NCBI GenBank assembly: GCA_013416795.1
Contig: RQSC01000020.1
Span: forward strand, 1-40,546
Length of the DNA: 40,546 nucleotides
Direction of reading: 5' to 3'
From: Prasinococcaceae sp. CCMP 1430
Lineage: Eukaryota; Prasinodermophyta; Palmophyllophyceae; Prasinococcales; Prasinococcaceae
Under the pieces are notes generated by a model. The model was not told the DNA's origin and searched no databases. It saw only the letters and a list, made by a program, of their open reading frames with translations. Numbering within the stretch: position 1 is the stretch's first letter; every line of letters begins with the position of its first letter. Positions 3,022 to 39,953 of the stretch are shown here, in pieces. The translations under genes were made by a program, and so were the position numbers.

Positions 3022-3490
3022 AAGCTTACAAGAGACACAAACCGTAATTGCGGTTCCGCGCGCGACTTCGGCGGCGGCGCGGTGCCGCTGCGCGGCGCCG
3101 GGCCGCCGCGCGGCCGGGGTTGGCCCCAGGGGGATCCGGAGGCGGCGCTGGGTCGGTGGGGCGCAGCCTCGATCGAGGGCGCCTGCCGGTCCTCGCCACG
3201 CCGAAGTGCCGCCCGCCAAGTCAGCTAGGTCTGAGTGAGAGGCTGCAGGCTGGCTCGGCGCGGCGCGCGAGCGCATGCGAACGGTGCGGGTTTGCGTCGG
3301 GTGACAGTGGTGCGCACCGCCTCCCCTCTCCCCCCCAGCACACGCACACGCACACGCACGCGCCCTGGGCCACAGCGCGGACGTGCGCGGCGACGCTGCG
3401 GGCTCGGGCGGCAGGCGCCGGGGAGGGGGCTCTCGCGGGAGGGCTCGGCCGGCGGCGGCGTCATGATCGTTCGGCTCGGCGGGCGAGCAG

Positions 3491-4819
3491 CGCACGCCCG
3501 GCGGCCTCATCCTGCCCGGGCAGCGCCCGGACCCGACGGCCGACCCGCGCGACGCGCAGTTCGGCGGCGGCGGGATGGCCGGCGGCGGCATGACCAACAT
3601 GGAGGCCAAGGCGGCGCAGACGGCAGCGTCGTTCCGCCCCCCGCCGAGCTTCGTCGAGGAGGTCAACGACGGCTGCGAGAACGACCAGGAGCGCCTGCAG
3701 CGACTCACCATGCGCATGGGCACGTGGTCGGAGCTCGCGAAGCTGCTGCCCACGCTGCGCCGCGGCGGCGTGGACGCCAAGACCGTCGAGATCGCCACGG
3801 GGCTCACGTGCGCGGAGCAGAACGAGATGGAGGGCGCGCTCGCCGTGCGCAGCTCCATGGAGGCCGCCGGCGCCGACGAGATGCTGCTGCGCCAGTTCGA
3901 CAACGAGGACGGCTTCCAGGTCCTCTACCGCATGGTGCGCATCCCGGCCAACCTGCGCCTCCCGTCCGCGGAGTGGGTGCTCGCAGTGGGCGGCGGGAAC
4001 GAGACCGTCAAGGAGCTCTCCGACGCCATCACCAAGTTCGAGCGCTACAAGGGCAGGGCGAAGGGCTTCGAGGAGCTTCCGGGGGATTGCATGGCCTTCA
4101 ACCTGTGGCGCACCGTCGACACGGCGGTCGTCAAGAAGACCGAGGCGCTGGAGACGCTCGGGCGCGCGATGGAGCTCTGCCAGTCGGAGAGGGCGCTCGA
4201 CACGATCCAGGCCACGCTCGACCAGTACGGCGACGTCCAGGCCGAGGATGACACCTCCAAGGACACCACCGCCGACATGGTCGCGCGGCTCCCGTCGTCG
4301 CGCATGCGCGAGGACGAGGCCGCGGGCGTGCTGGTGCCCGTGGCGGGCTCGCTCGCTGATCAGGGCATCGCCGCGCTCGTGCGCGCGTGCGCCGCGGCGT
4401 CGCCCTCGCCCGCCGCCAAGCCCTTCGGTGTCATCGAGGCGCCTGCCTCCAAGTACATTTTCGTCCCCGGCGGCTGGGCTATTTCCAAGAGGATCACCAA
4501 CCCGGTCGCCATCTTCGTACCCAATCGCACGACGCTGCCCGAGCAGACCAAGGCGTCTGCTGAGCCCGCCATGCTGGTGATCGACGCAGCCGACGCGCGC
4601 GGCGAGCCGGGCGCGTACTACGCCATGGACACCGGCAGCGGAATTCAGCTGATCGCCGGCGGGTCGGAGCAAGCCATGAGCGCCGCCGCCGGCGGCTACC
4701 TCCTCGGTGCGGGCGTGATGGTGCTGTTGGTGCCCCAGAGGGGCTCGGACTCGGCGTTCGACTCCCCGCCCGACGGTGATGAAGTGGTGGCGCAGGCGCT
4801 GGGCGGGAGCGGCTTCTAG
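3491..4819 (+). CDS. RAF1: RuBisCO accumulation factor 1 (RAF1)
   Basis: RAF1 is a plastid-stroma chaperone that brings Rubisco large subunits together during assembly of the green-type enzyme. The protein shows family landmarks in order: FRPPPSF, the helical segment RLTMRMGTWSELAKLLPTL, ATGLTCAEQNEMEGA, and LPGDCMAFNLWR. A C-terminal beta-rich half begins near PFGVIEAPASKY. The first ATG in frame is at 3575, but the frame is already open and protein-like (PGGLILPGQRPDPTADPRD) back to about 3491, where CAG could be an acceptor. A TGA at 3464 closes the frame further up. The transit peptide should therefore lie on an upstream exon. The stop is TAG at 4817. The neighbour at 4928 is convergent. 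No introns are visible inside the body. Confidence 0.88.
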   Translation, partial: RTPGGLILPGQRPDPTADPRDAQFGGGGMAGGGMTNMEAKAAQTAASFRPPPSFVEEVNDGCENDQERLQRLTMRMGTWSELAKLLPTLRRGGVDAKTVEIATGLTCAEQNEMEGALAVRSSMEAAGADEMLLRQFDNEDGFQVLYRMVRIPANLRLPSAEWVLAVGGGNETVKELSDAITKFERYKGRAKGFEELPGDCMAFNLWRTVDTAVVKKTEALETLGRAMELCQSERALDTIQATLDQYGDVQAEDDTSKDTTADMVARLPSSRMREDEAAGVLVPVAGSLADQGIAALVRACAAASPSPAAKPFGVIEAPASKYIFVPGGWAISKRITNPVAIFVPNRTTLPEQTKASAEPAMLVIDAADARGEPGAYYAMDTGSGIQLIAGGSEQAMSAAAGGYLLGAGVMVLLVPQRGSDSAFDSPPDGDEVVAQALGGSGF

Positions 4820-21953: not shown

Positions 21954-22027
21954 GGAGGTTGGGCCGTCATTGGCGGTGGCGGTGGCCGTGGCAGTGGTGC
22001 GGACGCGGCGCGCCGTAGGCGCGCGCC

Positions 22028-23494
22028 ATGGCGGGCACCGTGCGCCCGTCTGTGCTCGACCGCGTGGGCGAGGAGATCCAGAGTGTCGTCGTGCCCGTGT
22101 CGATATGCATGGCGATGACGGTCGCGCTCGTGCGCTACTTGATGCCGCACGGTGCGGCGGGCGCCAGCGGTGTGGCCATTGCCACGGTGTACTACCACGA
22201 GAAGGCCTCGGACTCGGCGGGTACCAAGTTCGAGGGGTCGCTCATCAACAGCCTCATCTTCATTGGAATCATCGGCTCGATGACCTTCGTGCTCTTCCTC
22301 CTCTTCAAGTACCGCTGCACCAAGGTCATATATGGCTATTTCGGCTTCGCGGGCTTCTCCATCTTTGCTGTGCTCGGGGGCAGCGTAGCCCTTGGCGTGC
22401 TCATCAAGGCGGGCGTTGCCATCGACGTCTACACGTTTGCGCTCGTGCTGTACAACTTCTCTGTGGGAGGCGTGCTCTTCACGTTCTACCTGCCGGGACC
22501 ACTGGTTGTCAAGCAGGGCTACCTGGTCTTCGTTGGCACCATAGTGGCCTTTTGGTTCACCAAGATTCCCGAGTGGACGACGTGGATGCTGCTGGCGGCC
22601 ATGTCGCTGTACGACTTGTGCGCGGTGCTGCTACCAGGAGGGCCGCTCAAGGTACTCGTCGAGCTCGCCGAGGAGCGCGACGAGGACATTCCTGCTCTCG
22701 TATATGAGGCGCGCCCGACGTCGTCCACGCGCTCGACCGCCGAACTTCGCCAACAGAGAGAGCACGCAGAGAGACGCAGGCAACAACAGCGGCGGGCGCG
22801 ACAACAGGGCGGGCACACAGGCGGTGCGAGACGAAATGCGAGTGTGGGTGTAGAGGAGGAGGACGGTGTGGGTGCAGAGAATTCTAGGACGGTGCGCCCA
22901 GACGTTTCTGGTGAGGGTGCTCCGGCGGGCGGCGCGGAGGGTGCTTGGACAGCGCCAACGGCCCTCGGTGATGCGGCTGCTGGAGGGAGCGCTTCGCCAC
23001 CGCCGTCGCCACCATCGGAGGCCGAGGACGCGCAGGATGAAGAGACGCGCCTGCTCCCACCAGCCGACGAGGGAGCGGACGCCGACGCCGGCACGCTCAC
23101 GCCCCCCGCGCGAGTTTCTGCCCGGGGGAGAGGACCGTCGCGGCACGGCCGCGAGCAACAGCGGCGGTCGCAGGATTTGCAGGAAGAGGGCGACGACGAC
23201 GACGACGACGACGACATGATGCTGCCGGACGCAATCAAGCTCGGCCTGGGAGACTTCATATTCTATTCTGTCCTGGTCGGCCGCGCCGCCATGTACGACC
23301 TGTCGACGGTCGTCGCGAGCTACCTGGCGATCGTGGCCGGCCTGGGCGCCACCCTGCTGCTTCTGGCCGTGTACCAGAAGGCGCTGCCGGCGCTGCCCAT
23401 CTCCATCGCGCTGGGGATGGCCTTCTACTTCATCACCCGCTTCGTCCTCGAGCCGTTCACGACCAGCATGTCCACCAGCTTGGTGTGGGCGTGA
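22028..23494 (+). CDS. PSEN: presenilin, catalytic aspartyl protease of gamma-secretase
   Basis: An intronless 488-residue membrane protease. The two catalytic aspartates are in the expected motifs: SLYDLCAVLLPGGPLKVLVE (Asp196, transmembrane helix 6) and LGLGDFIFYSVL (Asp409, helix 7). The PALP motif (ALPALPIS) follows about 45 residues later, near the C-terminus. The N-terminal helices (SVVVPVSICMAMTVALVRYL and others) align with the family without gaps. The segment after helix 6, ELAEERDEDIPALVYEAR, matches the animal and plant forms closely. The hydrophilic loop between the catalytic helices is about 165 residues, Arg/Gln- and Glu/Asp-rich, and ends in a run of seven Asp. In animals this loop is where the enzyme cuts itself. 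It would act in endomembranes with nicastrin, APH1 and PEN2, none of which is in the window. Confidence 0.95.
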   Translation: MAGTVRPSVLDRVGEEIQSVVVPVSICMAMTVALVRYLMPHGAAGASGVAIATVYYHEKASDSAGTKFEGSLINSLIFIGIIGSMTFVLFLLFKYRCTKVIYGYFGFAGFSIFAVLGGSVALGVLIKAGVAIDVYTFALVLYNFSVGGVLFTFYLPGPLVVKQGYLVFVGTIVAFWFTKIPEWTTWMLLAAMSLYDLCAVLLPGGPLKVLVELAEERDEDIPALVYEARPTSSTRSTAELRQQREHAERRRQQQRRARQQGGHTGGARRNASVGVEEEDGVGAENSRTVRPDVSGEGAPAGGAEGAWTAPTALGDAAAGGSASPPPSPPSEAEDAQDEETRLLPPADEGADADAGTLTPPARVSARGRGPSRHGREQQRRSQDLQEEGDDDDDDDDMMLPDAIKLGLGDFIFYSVLVGRAAMYDLSTVVASYLAIVAGLGATLLLLAVYQKALPALPISIALGMAFYFITRFVLEPFTTSMSTSLVWA

Positions 23495-24165: not shown

Positions 24166-24436
24166 TGAGCAGCGCAGGGCGGCGTGGCGCCGCGCGCGCG
24201 GGTGCGTGGGTGGGTCGGTGGGGCATGTGCGCGCGCTGCGTTCGGTCGGCGGCGGCGGGAAGCGGCGCAGCGCATCTCAGCGCGGCGTGGCGCGGCGCGG
24301 ACCCGTGCTCCGTCAGGCCTTCCTCCGCGCCTGGAGGCGCCATTGGTGGAGTGAGGGACGCCTGCTGACTCAATCTCGCTCGTGCGTGCCCGCCTGCGCT
24401 CTGCGCGCGCACATGCGCTGCGTCGCGCGCCTGCAG
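24166..24436. other. region upstream of the XRN1 body
   Basis: This region is GC-rich and I see no conserved exon in it. XRN1 proteins begin MGVPKFYRW, and PKFYRW starts at 24438, right after a CTGCAG acceptor. A very small first exon encoding Met-Gly-Val is therefore expected somewhere upstream. I found no ATGGGNGT followed by a donor between 24166 and 24436, so it may lie further away or in sequence missing at the gap. Confidence 0.4.
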
Positions 24437-27400
24437 TCCGAAGTTCTACCGATGGGTGAGCGAGCGGTACCCGCTGCTCAACCAGCCCCTAACTCGACTG
24501 GGCGCTCCCGAGGTCGACAACTTTTACCTCGATATGAACGGCATCGTCCACAACTGCACGCACGGCCCCGACACCGACATCAACAGCCGGCTGACGGAGG
24601 AGCAGATGATGCTGAAGATCTTCGCATACCTTGAGCGCATGTTCGACCTCATTCGTCCCAAGAAGCTCGTGTACATGGCCATCGACGGCTGCGCGCCGCG
24701 CGCCAAGATGAATCAACAGCGCTCGCGTCGCTTTCGCTCGGCTAAGGACGCCGCGGAGGCGGCCGAGGCGCAGCGGCGCAGCGGCGAGGCTGTGCCCGAG
24801 GGCCAGCCTTTCGACAGCAACTGCATCACGCCGGGCACGGACTTCATGGTGAGGCTAAACGCACACCTCAAGTGGTTCATCCGCAAGAAGGTCGGCAGCG
24901 ACCCGCTGTGGCAGTCGCCGCAGATTATCCTGTCAGGCCACGACGTGCCTGGCGAGGGCGAGCACAAAATCATGGAACACATCCGCTGCGCGCGCGCGTC
25001 GCCGCACTGGAAGCCAAACCAGCGCCACTGCCTGTACGGTCTCGACGCGGACCTCATCATGCTCGGCCTCGTCACGCACGAGCCTCACTTCTGCCTGCTG
25101 CGCGAGAAGGTGCGCTTCGGAGGCGGCTTCAGGGGACAGCCCAATAGGGAGATCTTCGATGCGTCGACCGATCCGGGCGACTCCTTCGTGTTGCTACAGG
25201 TTGGCCTGCTCCGCGACTACCTTGACGGCGAGATGCGCAATGGCCTGGCGTTGGATGCGCTGCCCATGGAGTACAACCTCGAGCACGTCATCGACGACTT
25301 CGTGTTCCTGTGCTACCTTGTCGGAAATGACTTCGTGCCATCACTGCCCACGTTCGACATCAATGAGGGCGCGCTCAACAACCTCATCGACCTCTACGTC
25401 GAGATGCTCCCGTCGCTCGGGGGATACCTCGTCGAGGACGGGGACGTGAAGCTCGAGCGGCTCGAGATGATTCTTGCGCAGCTGGGCGCGCAAGAGGAAG
25501 ACATCCTGGCGGCGCGCGCGAGGGATGCCGAGGCGTTCGCCAACAAACAGGACAGGCGCTCGGGGAGGCGCAGGCCGAAAGAGGTGTCCGACATGACAAT
25601 CGACGAGGAGGCGGACACGAGCGCGATGAAGGACTTCTCCGAGATGTCGAAGGTGCTGATGCCCCGCGCGGAAAACGATGGCAGCGGGGGCGACCTGTCA
25701 GGGGCTGAGAGCGACGGGGTCTCAGACTCGGACATGTCGGACGCGTCCATCTCGCGCATTGCGAGCGAGCCCACCATGATGTCTGAGAATTTTCGCCGGA
25801 TCTTTCTGGAGGGCGGCGAGGGCGAGGGAGGCAAAGGTGCTGTTGACATGTACAAGGAGCACTACTACTCGCAAAAGCTGGGGATCGATCCAAACAACCC
25901 GGAGGAGGTCGCACAAGTGGCGCACGACTACCTGGAGGGGCTCATTTGGGTGTTCAAGTACTACTACTGCGGATGCGCGAGTTGGCAGTACTTTTATCCC
26001 CACCACTACGCTCCCCTGGCGTCCGATCTGAAGAATCTCACCGCGCGCAAGATCGAGTACGTCAAGTCGGAGCCGTTCTACCCCTTTCAGCAGCTGCTCA
26101 GCGTGATGCCAGCCGGCAGCGCGCACCTTCTGCCGCGCGCGTATCGCCCACTGATGTGCGAGGAGAGCAGCCCCATTAGAGACTTCTACCCCGAGGACTT
26201 TCCGATCGACTTCGAAGGCAAGCGGAACGACTGGGAGGGCGTGTGCCTCGTCCCCTTCATCGACGCCTCCAGGCTCCTCGAGGCGGAGCGCACAATTGAT
26301 CCCTCGCTGCTGTCAGCTGCCGAGAAGGAGCGAAACGTGCGCTCGCTGCCGCAGCTCTTCCAGTACGACGAGTCTGTCACGAGCGACGTCTGCCCGTCGC
26401 CGTCCACGGACGGCGCGTCCAAGTACATGCCCGCCATCCACGGCAGCAAGTGCGCCGTCTTCACGCTGCCCCCGTACCCCGCCGAACAGCCGCCTTTGCG
26501 CCCGATGCTCGCCAAAGGCACGTCTGTCGGCGTGCGCTCACCGGCGGGCTATCCGACGCTGCGCACGCTGCAGTGCGACATGCGGCGTGAGATGGCCGCG
26601 GTCAATGTGCTCGGGACTGCCAGCAAGAAGGACAGCGTAATCGTGCGCCTTGACCAGGTGGCCGAAAGCCTGAAGGTTGCGACAGCCGAGGCGGTGGCGC
26701 AGGCGACAATGGGTCAGCGCTGCTTCGTTGAGTGGCCGTACCTGCGCGAGGCGCTCGTGGTGGCCGTGAGCGATGCCACGCAGAAGATCACACCCGCGGG
26801 CAAGCAGGTTTTCTCTCACGAGCAGGCCATTCAGTGGAAGAAAGACTGCCAGGGCATCCACCGGGACTTCCGGGTGGGGCGCGGCACCGATGTGGGCGTG
26901 ATCAGTGTGATGCTTCACGTGCGCACCTGCGTTGGGCTCAAGACGCAGCTCGATGGCAGCCAGGTGAAGACGTTCGACGACGCTGAGGGGCTCTTCCCGC
27001 TCCAGGTCACGCTGCGCAAGCACCCAGCCCCTGACATGCGGCGCAGCGAGCGCGCACAGCCGACCGAGGAAGAGGCCAAGCAGGCGCTCCCAACGGGCAC
27101 CAATGTGGTTTTCCTAGGCGAGTCGCACTTCGGTTGCTCGGCCACAGTCACTGACAGCCCGGATGCCACGAGGCAGAGTGCGACCACCCTGACCGTTGCC
27201 ATCCAGCCACCGGCTATCGCGCTGCCGAAGAAGGGCGCTACGCAGCGCCTGGCCAAGTCGATCGAGACCAGGTTTGAACCTGCCCACGTCGCGAGCAAGC
27301 GCGCCAAGTGCAATGGCATGGAGTTTGGGCGCGTGACTTCGACCATCTTCGTCCAGCTTGCGGAGGATCCAGACGAGAGCGGCAATTCCTTTGGTGGCAA

Positions 27401-29048
27401 GCGCGTAGACCTGGGCCTGGGCCTGAAGCACGGCGCCAAGCAGGCATACGTGCCCGGATATGTGAGGCCAAAGCCAGGCACTGGCCTTGACGGGGAGAAG
27501 ATGCAATGGGAATACTCGGACAAGGCCGTGCAGCTCGTGGCGGCGTACAAGCGTGCCTACCCGTGGCTCTTCAACGCGCTCTGCGCGTCGGACGACCTGA
27601 AAATGAGCGCCGAGGACCTGTTCCCTGGCATGGACCCCTTGATGGCCAATGCGCAGGTTCAGAACGCGCAGAAGTGGGTCAAGGCCCAGCCTGTCAATCG
27701 CCGCAAGCTTGTGGGTCTCGAGGTCAAGCTGGCATCAGACGAGGCCATCGCGGCGATCGAGGCGTCCATTCCGCAGTCGCCGTTGCTGCCCCCACCGGTA
27801 CTGGTTGAGAACGTCAAACCCAAGCTGCTCCTATGCGCTCCAGAGAAGGGCAAGGCCGACACGGTCGCCGCCGGTGGGGCGATGGGCCTAGGCGACCGCG
27901 TGGTCTTCGTCGGTGGGCTCTCCGACACGGGTAGCGTGTCGATTCCCTTCGGTGCCTGCGGCACTGTGGTGGGCCTGTATGGGGACAAGCACGTCGATCT
28001 GCTACTTGACGTGCCGGTAGCAGGTGCGAGCGACCTGTCGGGGCGCTGCTCGAAGGGGAGGGGCTTGCTCGTTTCGAGCTCATGCCTCCTGAATGTGTCG
28101 CGGCCTGCCTTCGCTGTGACATCGGCGAACGCGCATTTGAAATCAGGGGGCCAGGCGCCCACCATCGCCCCGGCCGCGTCGCAGTGGGTGGCACGCCAGG
28201 CGCGGCAGGCGGCGAGCGTGTCCACGGCTGCGGCAGCCGCAGTTGAAATGGCCGCGGCCGTCGCGCCAAACGCGATGGCAGCGGCGGCTGCCGCTGCTGC
28301 CGCGGCCTCGGCGGCGACACAGGCAAACGCCAAATCCTCTGCGCCGGCGCAGAAGGTTAAGGGTGCGGGAGCGAAGGGCACCAAAAGCGAAGTCGAGGAC
28401 GCCAAGACGGCGGCGGCAGCGGCCATCATGGGTAGCCTCATGGGGGGTGCCAACGGCGCCAAGGGCGCAGCGCCCGCCGATGCGGCGAACTTCTGGAAGA
28501 ACCTGCAGACGCAGGCGGGCGCTGCGCCGACCGCCCCCGCAGCGCCCGCTCCTTCCGCGGCGACCACCGAGGCTGACGCCTTTTGGAAGTCGTTGCAGGC
28601 GCAAAACGATGGCGCGGGCGCGCCCGCCTCTGCGCCGGTGCCCTCCCCCGCGCCGCCTCCGAAGCCCTCGGCTGCACTGCTGAAACCGCAGGTGATCACC
28701 GGCGCGGCGCGGCCAGCGCCACCGCCGAAGCGCACCGCAAAGCCTGCTCAGCGCGGCGGATTCCAAGGCGACTCGAGGAAGCTCGATGCTGGGGAGCACC
28801 CCAGCGGCGAGGACGTGGAAACGCGCGCCGAGCGCTTGGAGGACATCGACTCGGAATGGATGCAACCTACCGAGCACAACCCGGCCAACCCGAAACTCGG
28901 GGAGGGTGCCAGCATGAGCTGGCAGCAGGAGCACCTCATGGAGGGTAAGTCGGAGACCGACTTCCACGCCGAGATGGATGCGCGCCGCGGTGGCGGGCGC
29001 GGGAGGGGACGCAGCGGTGGGCGTGGCAAGGGGGGCGACCGTTCGTAA
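24437..29048 (+). CDS. XRN1: 5'-3' exoribonuclease of the XRN1 type
   Basis: Degrades decapped mRNA from the 5' end, normally in the cytoplasm. About 1,536 residues are present in one exon. The N-terminal nuclease domain is nearly complete: PKFYRWVSERYP, FYLDMNGIVHNC, AIDGCAPRAKMNQQRSRRFR, SGHDVPGEGEHKIMEHIR, LDADLIMLGLVTHE and YLVGNDFVPSLPTFDI hold the expected acidic catalytic residues. The helical domain follows, including GLIWVFKYYYCGCASWQYFY and PFQQLLSVMP. Beta-rich regions typical of XRN1 extend to about residue 1250. Their presence, and the length, favour XRN1 over nuclear XRN2/RAT1. The tail is Ala/Pro-rich with two copies of an FWK(N/S)LQ motif and ends in RGGGRGRGRSGGRGKGG. The first residues (MGV) must come from an upstream exon. 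The stop is TAA at 29046. Confidence 0.93.
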
Positions 29049-36639: not shown

Positions 36640-37152
36640 TCACCACCTGGCGAGTTCTGCGTGTTTCTCGTCGAGCTCCTTCTGCACCTTCTTGCGCCGG
36701 TAGAAAATAGCGCAATCCCTGTTGCTGCACAGCACATCCTGGTGAAGCGTACCCGAACAGCTCTGACATTGCGTCCACAGGCGAGAGAATTGCTCTTCGA
36801 GGTCGTTAGCGGCGCTCAGGCTCTTGTAGTAGATCTCCCCCGCGCGCGGCGAGCAGTTGGGACAGAGCGCGCCCTTGGCCGCAGCGCCCGACAGCGGCGC
36901 CTTGCAGCCGAGGCATTTGGCCTGCACCTTGGCGAACCGCATGATCCCACCGCCGGACATGCTCGGCGTCGAGATGGTGATGGCGCGCGTGTGATCGCCG
37001 GTGAGCAAGCTCTGCGCGTTTTTGAGACAAGGGTCGAAGATGCGAAGGAGGGGCGCCTTGAGCATTTCCAGGTAGTGCCGCGTATCGAGCGGCAGGTTGT
37101 GCTCGAGCGCATAGATGGGGTCCTCGGCTTTCTCGTACGCCTTGGCGCCCTT
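36640..37152 (-). CDS. POLD1: DNA polymerase delta catalytic subunit, C-terminal part only
   Basis: The last 170 residues of the B-family replicative polymerase. KAYEKAEDPIYALEHNLPLD, YLEMLKAPLLRIFDP and LLTGDHTRAI match the end of the polymerase domain. After them come both metal-binding modules: CysA (CLGCKAPLS ... CPNC) and CysB (CQSCSGTL ... CSNRDC), with FSRLWTQCQ and IFYRRKKVQKELDE between and after. CysB carries an iron-sulphur cluster and contacts accessory subunits in characterised enzymes. The stop is TGA at 36640. The frame is cut at the N at 37153, and the sequence beyond does not continue the polymerase. It lies immediately upstream of the MOC1-like gene on the same strand. Confidence 0.92.
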   Translation of the reverse strand, partial: KGAKAYEKAEDPIYALEHNLPLDTRHYLEMLKAPLLRIFDPCLKNAQSLLTGDHTRAITISTPSMSGGGIMRFAKVQAKCLGCKAPLSGAAAKGALCPNCSPRAGEIYYKSLSAANDLEEQFSRLWTQCQSCSGTLHQDVLCSNRDCAIFYRRKKVQKELDEKHAELARW

Positions 37153-37153
37153 N

Positions 37154-37794
37154 CCCCCCGCCCCCGCCGCCGCCGCGCGGGCCGGACCGCAGGTGGCCGG
37201 CGCGCCGCGCCGGGTCACTCGCCAAGAGACCGGGTCTACCCTCGAGCTACCCGTGGCTACCACCGCGACTGCGACGAGAGAGACCCGCTCCCATCGCGCA
37301 TTGCCCCGGTCCATCCCGCGATCGATCCGAGCGCCGCTCCCATCATCTCCTTCCTTACCGTTGGTGCCCAGCCAGCAGATACGCAGAGCATGTGCCATGC
37401 AGACAGGCCCCCAGCCAGCCCTGCAGGCAGCATGCCGTTGGTGGGGGTGTGGGCGGACGGGAGCCTCCGTCGAGGCGGCCCGCCGGACGTCCGTGCGCCG
37501 TTTCGTGGGCCGTCGCCCCTCCTCGCGCCGGCCGCCTTGGTGTCTGCACGCTGTCGCGCGCTCCTCAGACGCCTCATTGACGGCAAGGCTTCCAACACAT
37601 GGCGAGCGGATCTTTCGACAAAGCTCCTCGATGCCATTCGCAATGACCTCAAGCTGCAGCAAATCCCTCGCTGGGACGCTCTTAGCGCCCAGGCTCGCAG
37701 CAAGCTGCAGTTCAGGACCGGCGGCACCTTGCTGCTTTCGTGCCGACGATACGAGGCACGCAGCGAAAATGAGTTGGCGACGCGTCGCGCGAAN
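37154..37794 (+). CDS. unrecognised open frame isolated between two gaps
   Basis: This 641-base island is less GC-rich than its surroundings and fits neither the polymerase delta gene on its left nor the FAM98 gene on its right. The plus-strand frame contains VGVWADGSLRRGG, LLRRLIDGKASNTWRADLST, KLLDAIRNDLKLQQIPRWDA and KLQFRTGGTLLLSCRRYEAR, with a more natural residue mix than noise frames nearby. In-frame ATGs occur at about 37391 and 37432. I recognise no family. It may be an inserted contig, a mobile-element fragment or part of an unrelated gene. Confidence 0.3.
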
Positions 37795-37795
37795 C

Positions 37796-38353
37796 GGCGG
37801 CCGCGCGTATCAAATCGCGGCGCCGCGCGCGATCGGTGCGATCCGCACGCGCGCGCGCGCGCCAAGTGCGCGCGCGCGTCTGCGCCCAGTTAGGGCTGAA
37901 GACAGGGTTCGTACCCACCGTCCCGACCCCACGCACATGCACCGTGCGGGTGGTGTGCCGTGCGCCGAGTCGCGGGTGCGTCGGCGTCGCCCTCACGCCC
38001 TGCCCAGGCAACCAAGGCGCAAGGGCGCGTGTCTCCCTCTGCGTGTGCGCGTGCGGGTGCGGGTGTGTCTCCGCGTGCGGGTGCGGGTGTGGGTGTGGGT
38101 GTGGGCGCGGGCGTGCGCCCGCCCGTGGGTCCGCGCGCCTGGCTCTGTCGGTCGGTCGGGGTCGTCGTCGCCTCCCCTGGCTGGGTGGTGCTGGCTGGCT
38201 GGCTCCCCCCGGGGGTGGCGTGGCGTGGCGGGGGGTTTGGGTTGGCGGGTGCGCCGCGCGCGCGCCACGCGCGGGCCAAACACACGCTGTGTCAGCGCCG
38301 TGCGCTGGCAGAAGCGCCAGCTGACTCGGAGGCCCACAGGCAGGCGCGCGCAC
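37796..38353. repeat. GT/GC-rich low-complexity stretch within the FAM98 gene
   Basis: Between the FAM98 donor at 38353 and the N at 37795 lies sequence rich in GTGCGG, GTGTGG and GGTCGG units, strongest at 38040-38160. It is probably intron, because the next expected FAM98 exon is not present before the gap. The G-rich strand could form quadruplexes. Confidence 0.5.
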
Positions 38354-39076
38354 CTTGATGACCATCTCGCGCCGCACCCGGTACTCGCTAGTGAGTGCGG
38401 CGTGCACCTCGCCGAGGAGCGCCGTCTGCGCGTCCGAGAGCGCCGTCGGATCCACGAGCCGCCGCATCGCGCCGCTCTCCTCGGCGCGAGCTGCGGCGCC
38501 CGCCGTCGTGTCGGCTGCCGCGCGCAGCGCGGCGGCCGCGCTGGTGTTCAGGGTCTGGTCGACACCCGCCGCGGCCGCCACGCGGCGCACGCACTCGGCG
38601 GCCATCGCCGACTCGCTGGTGTCCCCCGACGAGCCCGTGCGCACGGACGCCGCCTGCGCGAGCATTCTGCGTGCCTGCATGGCCGCGACGAGCTCCTCGA
38701 TGGCGGTGATGGGCACGGGCTCGTTCGCCGCTATCGATTCCGGCACTCCCGCCTTGACAGCGGCCGCGATGAGCTCCGCGCGCATCTCCGCCGGCGTCAT
38801 GACTTCGACCATCTCCTTGAAAGACACGCCCGCCGACACCGTCTCCTCGGAAGACACCGCCGACACCATCTCCTTGGAAGACGCGCCCGCCGACACCAGC
38901 AGGGCGACTGCCATCCTGCGGAACGCGCGGCTCCCAGGGCCGGCGAGGTCGGCAAGCTCAGGCCCGGTGCACGGTATGTCGCAGTCGGACAGCCGCTCGG
39001 CGAGCTCGGCGAGGCGGTCGTCCGCAGACACCGCGGGCGACATCGCAGGCGGTGCCATCGCTGACACCGATGCCAT
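38354..39076 (-). CDS. FAM98 family protein, N-terminal exon
   Basis: A first exon of exactly 241 codons from ATG 39076 (MASVSAMAPPAMSPAV) to a donor AAG|GTGCGC at 38353. The C-terminal segment ALLGEVHAALTSEYRVRREM followed by VIK matches the FAM98 core in animals (AINQAIANEYEVRRKLLIK). Earlier parts (LAERLSDCDIPCTGPELADL, ITAIEELVAAMQARRMLAQ) fit its helical N-terminal domain. FAM98 proteins associate with the tRNA ligase complex and with DDX1/RTCB in animals; whether that holds here is unknown. The following exons are missing because the gap at 37795 intervenes. The frame contains a short tandem repeat of SAG(A/V)S(S/F)KEMV type. It is divergent from the repeat protein to the right. Confidence 0.72.
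38812..38899 (-). repeat. three tandem 27-30-base units inside FAM98
   Basis: Three adjacent units encode SAGASSKEMV, SAVSSEETV and SAGVSFKEMV. The DNA units share CGCCGACACC...TCTCCTTGGAAGA-like sequence. They are probably a recent slippage product within a helical region. Confidence 0.6.
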
Positions 39077-39290
39077 CGCGCGCGGCCACGCCACACCAAG
39101 CACAGGCTATGCTCGCTATGCCCCCGACCCCCACCCCCTCTTCCCCGCGCGCACGCTCCCCAGCTCCCCGCACGCGCAGCCCGACCCCCGCCGCAGCTCA
39201 CCCCGCCTGTGCGGGGACGAACGCCCCCCCGGCGCGGGCGCCGCGCGCGGCCCCCTCCTCGCCCGCCCGCCCACCCACCCGCCCGTNNNN

Positions 39291-39950
39291 AAGGTGCCGG
39301 GCCACATCGCCCGCATGGAGGCCGCGCGCGCCAAGGCGAACGGCGTGGACCCCCGCGCGGCCGCCGCGCGCAACGCGAGGCCGTCGTTCAACTCGGCGCC
39401 GTCGTCCGCGCCCGCATACACCCCGCCGCCCGCCTCGCCCACTCCGGCGGCCCGTTCCTACGAGCCCGCCCCCCAGCGCAGCGGACGGAAGGTGCCGGGC
39501 CACATCGCCCGCATGGAGGCCGCGCGCGCCAAGGCCAACGGCGTGGACCCCCGCGCGGCCGCCGCGCGCAACGCGAGGCCGTCGTTCAACTCGGCCCCGG
39601 CGGCCCCGCCCGCATACACCCCGCCGGCCCGGCCTACGCCCACTCGCGCCCCCGAGCGGAGCTACCAGGCCGCGCCCCGCCCGACCGGCGGCAAGGTGCC
39701 CGGCCACATCGCCCGCATGCAGGCCGCCGCCGCCAAGGCCGCCAGCCCGGACCCGCGTGCGGCTGCGGCTCGCAACGCCAGGCCGTCGTTCAACGCCGCG
39801 CCCTCGCAGGCCTCGTACACCCCCCCGCCGCGCTCGACTGAGAACGAGTTCGCGGCCCGCGCTGCGTCCGTGTCCTCGCCCGCCCCCTCGGGCGCCAAGG
39901 TCCCGGCGCACATCCGTCGCATGGAGGCTGCCCGCGCCAAGGCCCTCGCC
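39291..39950 (+). repeat. tandem 198/204/204-base repeat
   Basis: The AAGGTGCC start of each unit lies at 39291, 39489, 39693 and, as AAGGTCCC, at 39897, giving periods of 198, 204 and 204 bases (66, 68 and 68 codons). Units one and two are almost identical over about 120 bases and unit three is more divergent, so copies may have been gained recently. The four Ns just before unit one suggest that further copies collapsed in assembly. Confidence 0.85.
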
Positions 39951-39953
39951 TAA
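39291..39953 (+). CDS. KVPxHIxRM repeat protein, candidate intrinsically disordered scaffold (EPYC1-like architecture)
   Basis: The frame leaves a gap of four N at 39287 and runs 220 residues to TAA at 39951. It holds three long units and a fourth truncated one. Each starts KVPGHIARM(E/Q)AA.AKA (KVPAHIRRMEAARAKALA in the last), continues DPRAAAARNARPSFN, then a Pro/Ala/Ser/Tyr linker (such as AYTPPARPTPTRAPERSYQ). The helix-forming part has many Arg and Lys; the linker has almost no acidic residues, so the protein is strongly basic and mostly disordered. I recognise no named family. The layout resembles pyrenoid Rubisco linkers (EPYC1 of Chlamydomonas: about 60-residue repeats, one helix each, basic, disordered), which bind Rubisco multivalently. 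That function is inference. The N-terminus, any targeting peptide and possibly more repeats are lost in the gap. Confidence 0.7.
   Translation, partial: KVPGHIARMEAARAKANGVDPRAAAARNARPSFNSAPSSAPAYTPPPASPTPAARSYEPAPQRSGRKVPGHIARMEAARAKANGVDPRAAAARNARPSFNSAPAAPPAYTPPARPTPTRAPERSYQAAPRPTGGKVPGHIARMQAAAAKAASPDPRAAAARNARPSFNAAPSQASYTPPPRSTENEFAARAASVSSPAPSGAKVPAHIRRMEAARAKALA

Follow-up and report, generated by a model that had tools for sequence, protein, structure and literature searches.

The 40,546-nucleotide stretch of DNA analysed here (the window; C62:1-40546 of a 24.5 Mb, 145-contig assembly with a GC content of mostly 68-73%) contains an open frame in which one short basic peptide recurs at almost even distances up to the stop codon. 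The question raised by this locus is what such a protein binds. A first-pass annotation had proposed a Rubisco linker of the pyrenoid, based on repeat length, basic charge, one helix per unit and long disorder, and on RAF1, the gene of a Rubisco assembly chaperone, in the same window. By analogy with known linkers, we consider it rather probable that the gene encodes a chloroplast-targeted, disordered, basic and multivalent Rubisco cross-linker, and that a sister protein ties in the starch sheath.

Repeat array and reading frame

From 39291 to 39953 on the plus strand, 220 residues are read in one frame, followed by a stop codon ending at 39953. KVP[GA]HI occurs at residues 1, 67, 135 and 203, resulting in spacings of 66, 68 and 68 residues and leaving 18 residues in the last copy. 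The parts of the array, with the database relatives P0001 to P0004 described below, are as follows:

39291..39488, plus strand: repeat unit 1, 66 aa, identical to unit 1 of P0001
39489..39692, plus strand: repeat unit 2, 68 aa, its tail also found at the start of P0002
39693..39896, plus strand: repeat unit 3, 68 aa, its first 54 residues equal to unit 2 of P0003
39897..39953, plus strand: C-terminal motif copy KVPAHIRRMEAARAKALA, 18 aa, and stop codon
Candidate Rubisco-binding peptide of the repeat protein: KVPGHIARMEAARAKA

The three units and the partial fourth, already described in the annotation, were found in frame to the stop and form the strongest array in the window. Tandem Repeats Finder placed it at the top of 31 rows (period 198, 2.6 copies, score 709), and the best ungapped self-match reached 265 compared to a maximum of 97 in 100 shuffles. 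The GC3 of the array is 0.93, and the relatives keep their repeat units in the same frame. Units 1 and 2 show two base differences over 36 codons, both synonymous. Units 1 and 3 show 19 differences, nine in synonymous and ten in non-synonymous codons, which may be taken as a weak sign of constraint.

The motif consensus comprises 16 residues, K-V-P-[GA]-H-I-x-R-M-x-A-x-x-x-K-A, of which ten are invariant across the six distinct copies known. The 16-residue head of the unit showed a mean pairwise identity of 0.86 (55 pairs, 11 distinct units) and the spacer a similarity ratio of 0.59 (28 pairs, 8 units), a contrast that is only indicative since two different measures are compared. A head more conserved than its spacer is expected where the head is the working part. 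The invariant positions also bear on the possibility that this is an ordinary low-complexity basic repeat protein of the mitochondrion, nucleus or cytosol, whose CBM20 relative has an unrelated function. A GC content of 70% by itself predicts Ala/Pro/Arg-rich sequence, as such a protein would have, but ten fixed positions in six distinct copies of a 16-residue motif argue against it, and we regard this explanation as unlikely.

Directly before unit 1 lies an assembly gap of four Ns (39287..39290), which is real, as the annotation had stated, and whose true size may differ. This gap probably conceals the start codon and the N-terminus, and perhaps additional units. On the other strand, the first in-frame ATG of the divergent open reading frame lies at 39076 (the true start may differ), and the promoter and N-terminus of the repeat gene would be located between this position and the gap or inside the gap. 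The position of the gap, exactly at the first unit, could point to an artefact of assembly or reading, with two genes collapsed or fused into one chimeric array and a protein nonexistent as read. Since relatives from other data sets contain such units in frame and with the same ending, we consider an artefact very improbable.

Several other genes were observed in the window. The divergent neighbour (37715-39076, minus strand) showed a DUF2465 match, presumably FAM98-like, below the cut-off (23.8 bits compared to 30.5), and contains a 30-base repeat at 38808-38898. An XRN1-type 5'-3' exonuclease with D1, D2/D3 and SH3-like domains is encoded at 24369-29045 (plus strand); land plants are not known to have kept any but XRN2-like enzymes. 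Furthermore, presenilin (22019-23491), ribosomal protein L2 (7130-8521) and the C-terminal zinc finger of DNA polymerase delta (36643-37809) were identified.

Charge, disorder and predicted helices

The repeat protein has a pI of 11.8 and a charge of about +23.6, in agreement with the basic character claimed before. It is predicted to be disordered by two rough measures, charge-hydropathy and TOP-IDP (93% of positions above a rough threshold). The low scores of the AlphaFold2 model, which was built on a five-row alignment (mean pLDDT of 57, pTM of 0.15), accord with the long disorder of the annotation and render the following helices tentative, the last one least so:

39300..39338, plus strand: predicted helix of unit 1, residues 4-16, low confidence
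39498..39536, plus strand: predicted helix of unit 2, residues 70-82, low confidence
39702..39743, plus strand: predicted helix of unit 3, residues 138-151, low to moderate confidence
39906..39947, plus strand: predicted C-terminal helix, residues 206-219, block pLDDT of 78-83

Accordingly, a helix of 13-14 residues is predicted at each motif copy, to which the claim of a single helix per unit comes close. Every full unit of the model contains a second helix of lesser length (21-28, 87-94 and 155-162), and another is placed at 184-193, so that full units may comprise two. None of the six helix peptides exceeded its own shuffles in amphipathicity at the 5% level; a classically amphipathic motif helix is therefore unsupported, a result that counts against the linker reading.

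Relatives of the repeat protein

Searches with the repeat protein yielded only matches below the cut-off in Pfam (best E of 0.024, no stretch passing alone) and nothing in the PDB at E up to 10, and thus no credible match in either. The PDB search included 8q05, the linker fragment of which may be too short to be listed. Two candidates obtained with the motif profile were rejected. Designed TPR proteins matched with E down to 3.8e-23, again with no stretch passing alone, and were ascribed to Ala-rich pieces, and Sp17 matched at chance level (E of 1). No description of such a protein was found among the open-licence papers listed.

Among 5.8 billion proteins, four of the 7996 scored candidates were retained at E up to 10, namely P0001 (8.5e-70), P0002 (1.3e-56), P0003 (3.9e-45) and P0004 (9.3e-32). 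Since the candidate list was full, probably owing to Ala-rich words, more distant relatives may have been missed. A search for longer homologues, with the whole open reading frame as length guide and the repeats as region, left no hit at E up to 10 among 7997 scored candidates, and residues 22-110 of P0001 as query retained only P0001, P0004 and P0002 from 56 candidates. The end of the protein is shared: a motif copy forms the very C-terminus of the window protein, P0001, P0002 and P0004, with KVPAHILRMQAQAAKAHA as the matching end of the three relatives, and P0003 is cut before its end.

P0003, whose source label (merc) we take to denote a marine eukaryote metatranscriptome catalogue, opens with MVVSKAACARAAALAPATRRVAVRAA, immediately followed by its first KVPGHIARM. 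Of its 26 N-terminal residues, 11 are Ala and 4 are Arg, and none is acidic; this stretch is also rich in Val and ends in V-R-A-A, a chloroplast cleavage pattern of green algae. Judged by inspection, this N-terminus resembles a chloroplast transit peptide ahead of a linker. The assembled part of the repeat protein, which begins after the gap, contains no transit peptide, and P0003 could be a wrong assembly at the protein level. Chloroplast and mitochondrial presequences of green algae are moreover hard to distinguish, which counts in favour of a protein in another compartment.

Within the assembly, the repeat protein matched the window locus only (E up to 0.001). With P0003 as query (E up to 10), three places in this locus and, outside it, four weak matches were obtained (C79, 0.15; C73, 0.33; C2, 2.7; C10, 5.5). 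Two degenerate motif patterns revealed no motif-bearing places in the assembly beyond the four sites of the window; for the second pattern, the reversed control gave one match. In Chlamydomonas, several motif-bearing proteins are described in the part of the literature available to us (PMC10473226), and the single locus found here counts against a Rubisco linker.

Probable half CBM20 domain of the sister proteins

In P0001 and P0004, the repeats are preceded by '...LPAGEATEYKYVHMDSESGHVHAWQPGYNQEI...CDVW'. We read this region as half of a starch-binding domain of the CBM20 family, namely its C-terminal part, on the basis of the following comparisons. The Pfam profile CBM_20 (97 positions) matched P0001 at positions 53-86 (E of 0.031) and P0004 at positions 56-86 (E of 0.033), both under the curated cut-off, as is expected of half a domain. 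In the PDB, the top two of five rows are glucoamylases (1ac0, E of 0.039; 6frv, 0.5), aligned through the closing D-x-W, and the other three are ferulic acid esterase (E of 0.81-0.87). A Lys and a Trp of P0001 align to chain positions 70 and 82 of 1ac0, which we take to be the starch-site residues K578 and W590. A profile built from five of the six CBM20 places in the genome (L014 was left out, and L013, included, lacks the second half) gave 16.6 bits for the N-terminus of P0001 (single-comparison E of 3.7e-7), 13.5 bits for whole P0001 and 13.3 bits for P0004, compared to a best value of 8.1 bits among 2000 shuffles (1924 reported). None of the database scores is strong individually; they agree in family, register and end point. 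The fusion of this domain with the repeats occurs in two sequences of unequal repeat number, four in P0001, an incomplete protein of 294 residues, and three in P0004.

The sister was not found in the assembly, which counts against the linker reading: whole P0001 matched the window locus only (E up to 10), and its N-terminal part one weak place (C23, E of 0.65, 32% identity). No KVP motif was found within about 1.5 kb of the six CBM20 loci, of which L014 contains 603 Ns. L014 also contains the first half of a CBM20 domain (L014:1501-1644; C72:369108-369251, minus strand), which ends before a splice-donor-like GTGAGT and runs antisense in an open reading frame that, by inspection, encodes EF-hand-like repeats. 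The CBM20 half of P0001 starts at a point that matches the end of this piece. Joined on paper, both halves gave 57.7 bits over profile positions 3-86, with a W-to-P spacing as in L009, L011 and L012. Since any two compatible halves might score so and the piece stands alone inside another open reading frame, this half is a lead only.

As green algae store their starch in the plastid, the fusion points to this compartment and thereby away from mitochondrion, nucleus or cytosol. The only folded domain linked to the repeats being a starch-binding one, a starch-granule scaffold without Rubisco has to be considered: the partner of the repeats would be a starch synthase, a different starch protein or the repeats themselves, and their recruitment to starch would fall to the CBM20 sister, in a manner similar to PTST2 of plants. 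However, a multivalent version with even spacing in which no CBM20 was observed (P0003 and window units 3-4) is more in keeping with a linker that condenses Rubisco than with a protein that initiates granules, and the plan of helix and spacer is like that of EPYC1 and CsLinker, an argument by likeness. We consider a scaffold of this kind rather unlikely.

Mosaic units and mixed assembly

Window units 1 and 2 resemble the CBM20 sister, and units 3 and 4 go with P0003. P0002 combines the tail of window unit 2 at its start with the ending of the CBM20 sister. This pattern would be explained either by genes that exchange units by gene conversion or by an assembly that merged them, and in the latter case speaks for an artefact.

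The same holds true for scaffold C136, which mixes two kinds of plastid DNA with nuclear-like DNA. It was sampled in 20 stretches (196,838 of 476,838 bases), five of which consist of Ns only. The remainder comprised nuclear-like DNA (65-71% GC) and two blocks of plastid DNA, one with the RbcL gene L004 (32-42% GC by stretch) and one with the RbcL gene L003 (41-44% GC) and ndh-type genes (ndhE, ndhG and ndhH by inspection). Thus, two green-type plastid DNAs with different RbcLs stand beside nuclear-like DNA on C136 (L026-L028, L030-L035, L003-L005), which could originate from contamination, mis-scaffolding or two algae in culture.

Rubisco genes

The assembly contains green-type RbcL, one exon of RbcS, and RAF1. 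A search with RuBisCO_large resulted in four places (L003, L004, L005 and a weak one on C81). L005 is cut by Ns and reads as L004 as far as it goes, and the full-length RbcLs L003 and L004 are identical at 423 of 475 positions. The weak match (L006; C81:34468-35181, 65.6 bits) lies in an open frame of 779 residues; it may represent a Rubisco-like protein or belong to an unrelated member of the bin. RbcS was represented by one partial match only (profile positions 66-97) near a run of Ns. In the PDB, the L004 RbcL scored highest (1045 bits) with the Chlorella protein from the CsLinker complex, 8q04, closely followed by 1gk8 (1042.9 bits), which we take to be the Chlamydomonas protein. According to the available part of the published description, CsLinker contacts RbcL via E51, D86, I87 and Y97 (PMC11570498). 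These four residues are kept in both full-length RbcLs, which permits binding of the candidate linker at this site without showing it. The site hardly discriminates, since it is probably widespread in green Rubiscos.

RAF1, annotated before in the window, was confirmed with all three Pfam domains at 3467-4813 (plus strand); no other place in the assembly matched the family of its C-terminal domain. Since it lies about 34 kb away from the repeats in a nuclear genome, where neighbourhood says little, it is weak evidence for the function of the repeat protein, and an assembly chaperone gene by itself says little. A search of the assembly for LCIB gave no match, with an equally silent control, and bestrophin was represented by one marginal match (25.7 bits compared to a cut-off of 24.2).

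Proposed function and comparison with known linkers

The repeat protein would be imported into the chloroplast, largely disordered and strongly basic. Each motif copy would form a short helix of basic character with weak affinity for a patch on the holoenzyme of green-type Rubisco, and the Pro/Ala/Ser/Tyr spacers of about 50 residues would let one chain bridge several holoenzymes. Rubisco bridged in this way would condense into the pyrenoid matrix, and in P0001 and P0004, the CBM20 domain before the same motif would tie the starch sheath to this matrix, as SAGA1/SAGA2 do in Chlamydomonas. Plastid import, Rubisco as partner, condensation and starch tethering are the steps that we infer.

The spacings of 66, 68 and 68 residues lie within the published range of 20-120 residues for repeated helices. 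Architecture alone is a weak argument, since a feature search in Chlorella, as far as the available part of the report goes, yielded 13 proteins with these general traits, only one of which was common to the Rubisco pull-down (PMC11570498). The other 12 speak for an ordinary repeat protein of another compartment. Had the CBM20 sister and the N-terminus of P0003 not been found, we would have judged a Rubisco linker to be unlikely. The idea of the first-pass annotation thus gains from these two, from the green Rubisco genes and from the spacing, whereas architecture alone and the neighbourhood of RAF1 contribute little.

In the accessible portions of two papers, one Rubisco-binding motif is common to EPYC1 and SAGA1/SAGA2 of Chlamydomonas, and the latter also bear starch-binding CBM20 domains (PMC13167743; PMC10473226). 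The present pair fits this one-motif description, which leads to the proposal of a linker and a starch tether. Like EPYC1, the repeat protein comprises predicted disordered repeats with evenly spaced candidate sticker helices, the sticker being common to CBM20 starch proteins of the same organism in the case of EPYC1. While EPYC1 has five stickers and binds the small subunit, four motif copies are visible here, and the likeness is one of description. P0001 and P0004 would be alike to SAGA1/SAGA2, which in the available descriptions combine CBM20 with the Rubisco-binding motif of Chlamydomonas, if the motif of P0001 and P0004 binds Rubisco. The SAGA proteins are described there as coiled-coil, and P0001 and P0004 are likened to them by domain plan, with no sequence relation claimed.

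CsLinker of Chlorella, as far as covered by the available text, shares a 66-residue spacing (Leu174/Met240) and basic plus hydrophobic contacts, and comprises helices of about 10 residues and a predicted transit peptide (PMC11570498). Its motif consists of Phe, Leu/Met, Arg and Lys, compared to Ile, Met, Arg and Lys after a leading KVPGH here. The same portion of the paper mentions no CBM20 sister of CsLinker (PMC11570498), in contrast to P0001 and P0004. PYCO1 of diatoms also shows disordered repeats, sticker motifs and Tyr-containing spacers, but differs in its KWSPR sticker, a red-type Rubisco and uneven spacing. Altogether, the repeat protein can be grouped with the known linkers by its presumed working mode; membership in their sequence families is not claimed.

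The chances are about even that a green alga from beyond the groups studied so far has acquired a Rubisco-binding motif of its own and employs it in a linker as well as in a CBM20 tether, the plan of EPYC1 and SAGA having been reinvented independently. A 2026 paper speculates, in its available part, that other algae possess such proteins and build their starch sheath likewise (PMC13167743), and a second pair of linker and starch tether with a common motif would directly test this speculation. Such a pair would also supply plant engineers with matched parts. If the proposed function is true, the organisation of pyrenoid layers by one sticker motif would be a general rule and not a peculiarity of Chlamydomonas.
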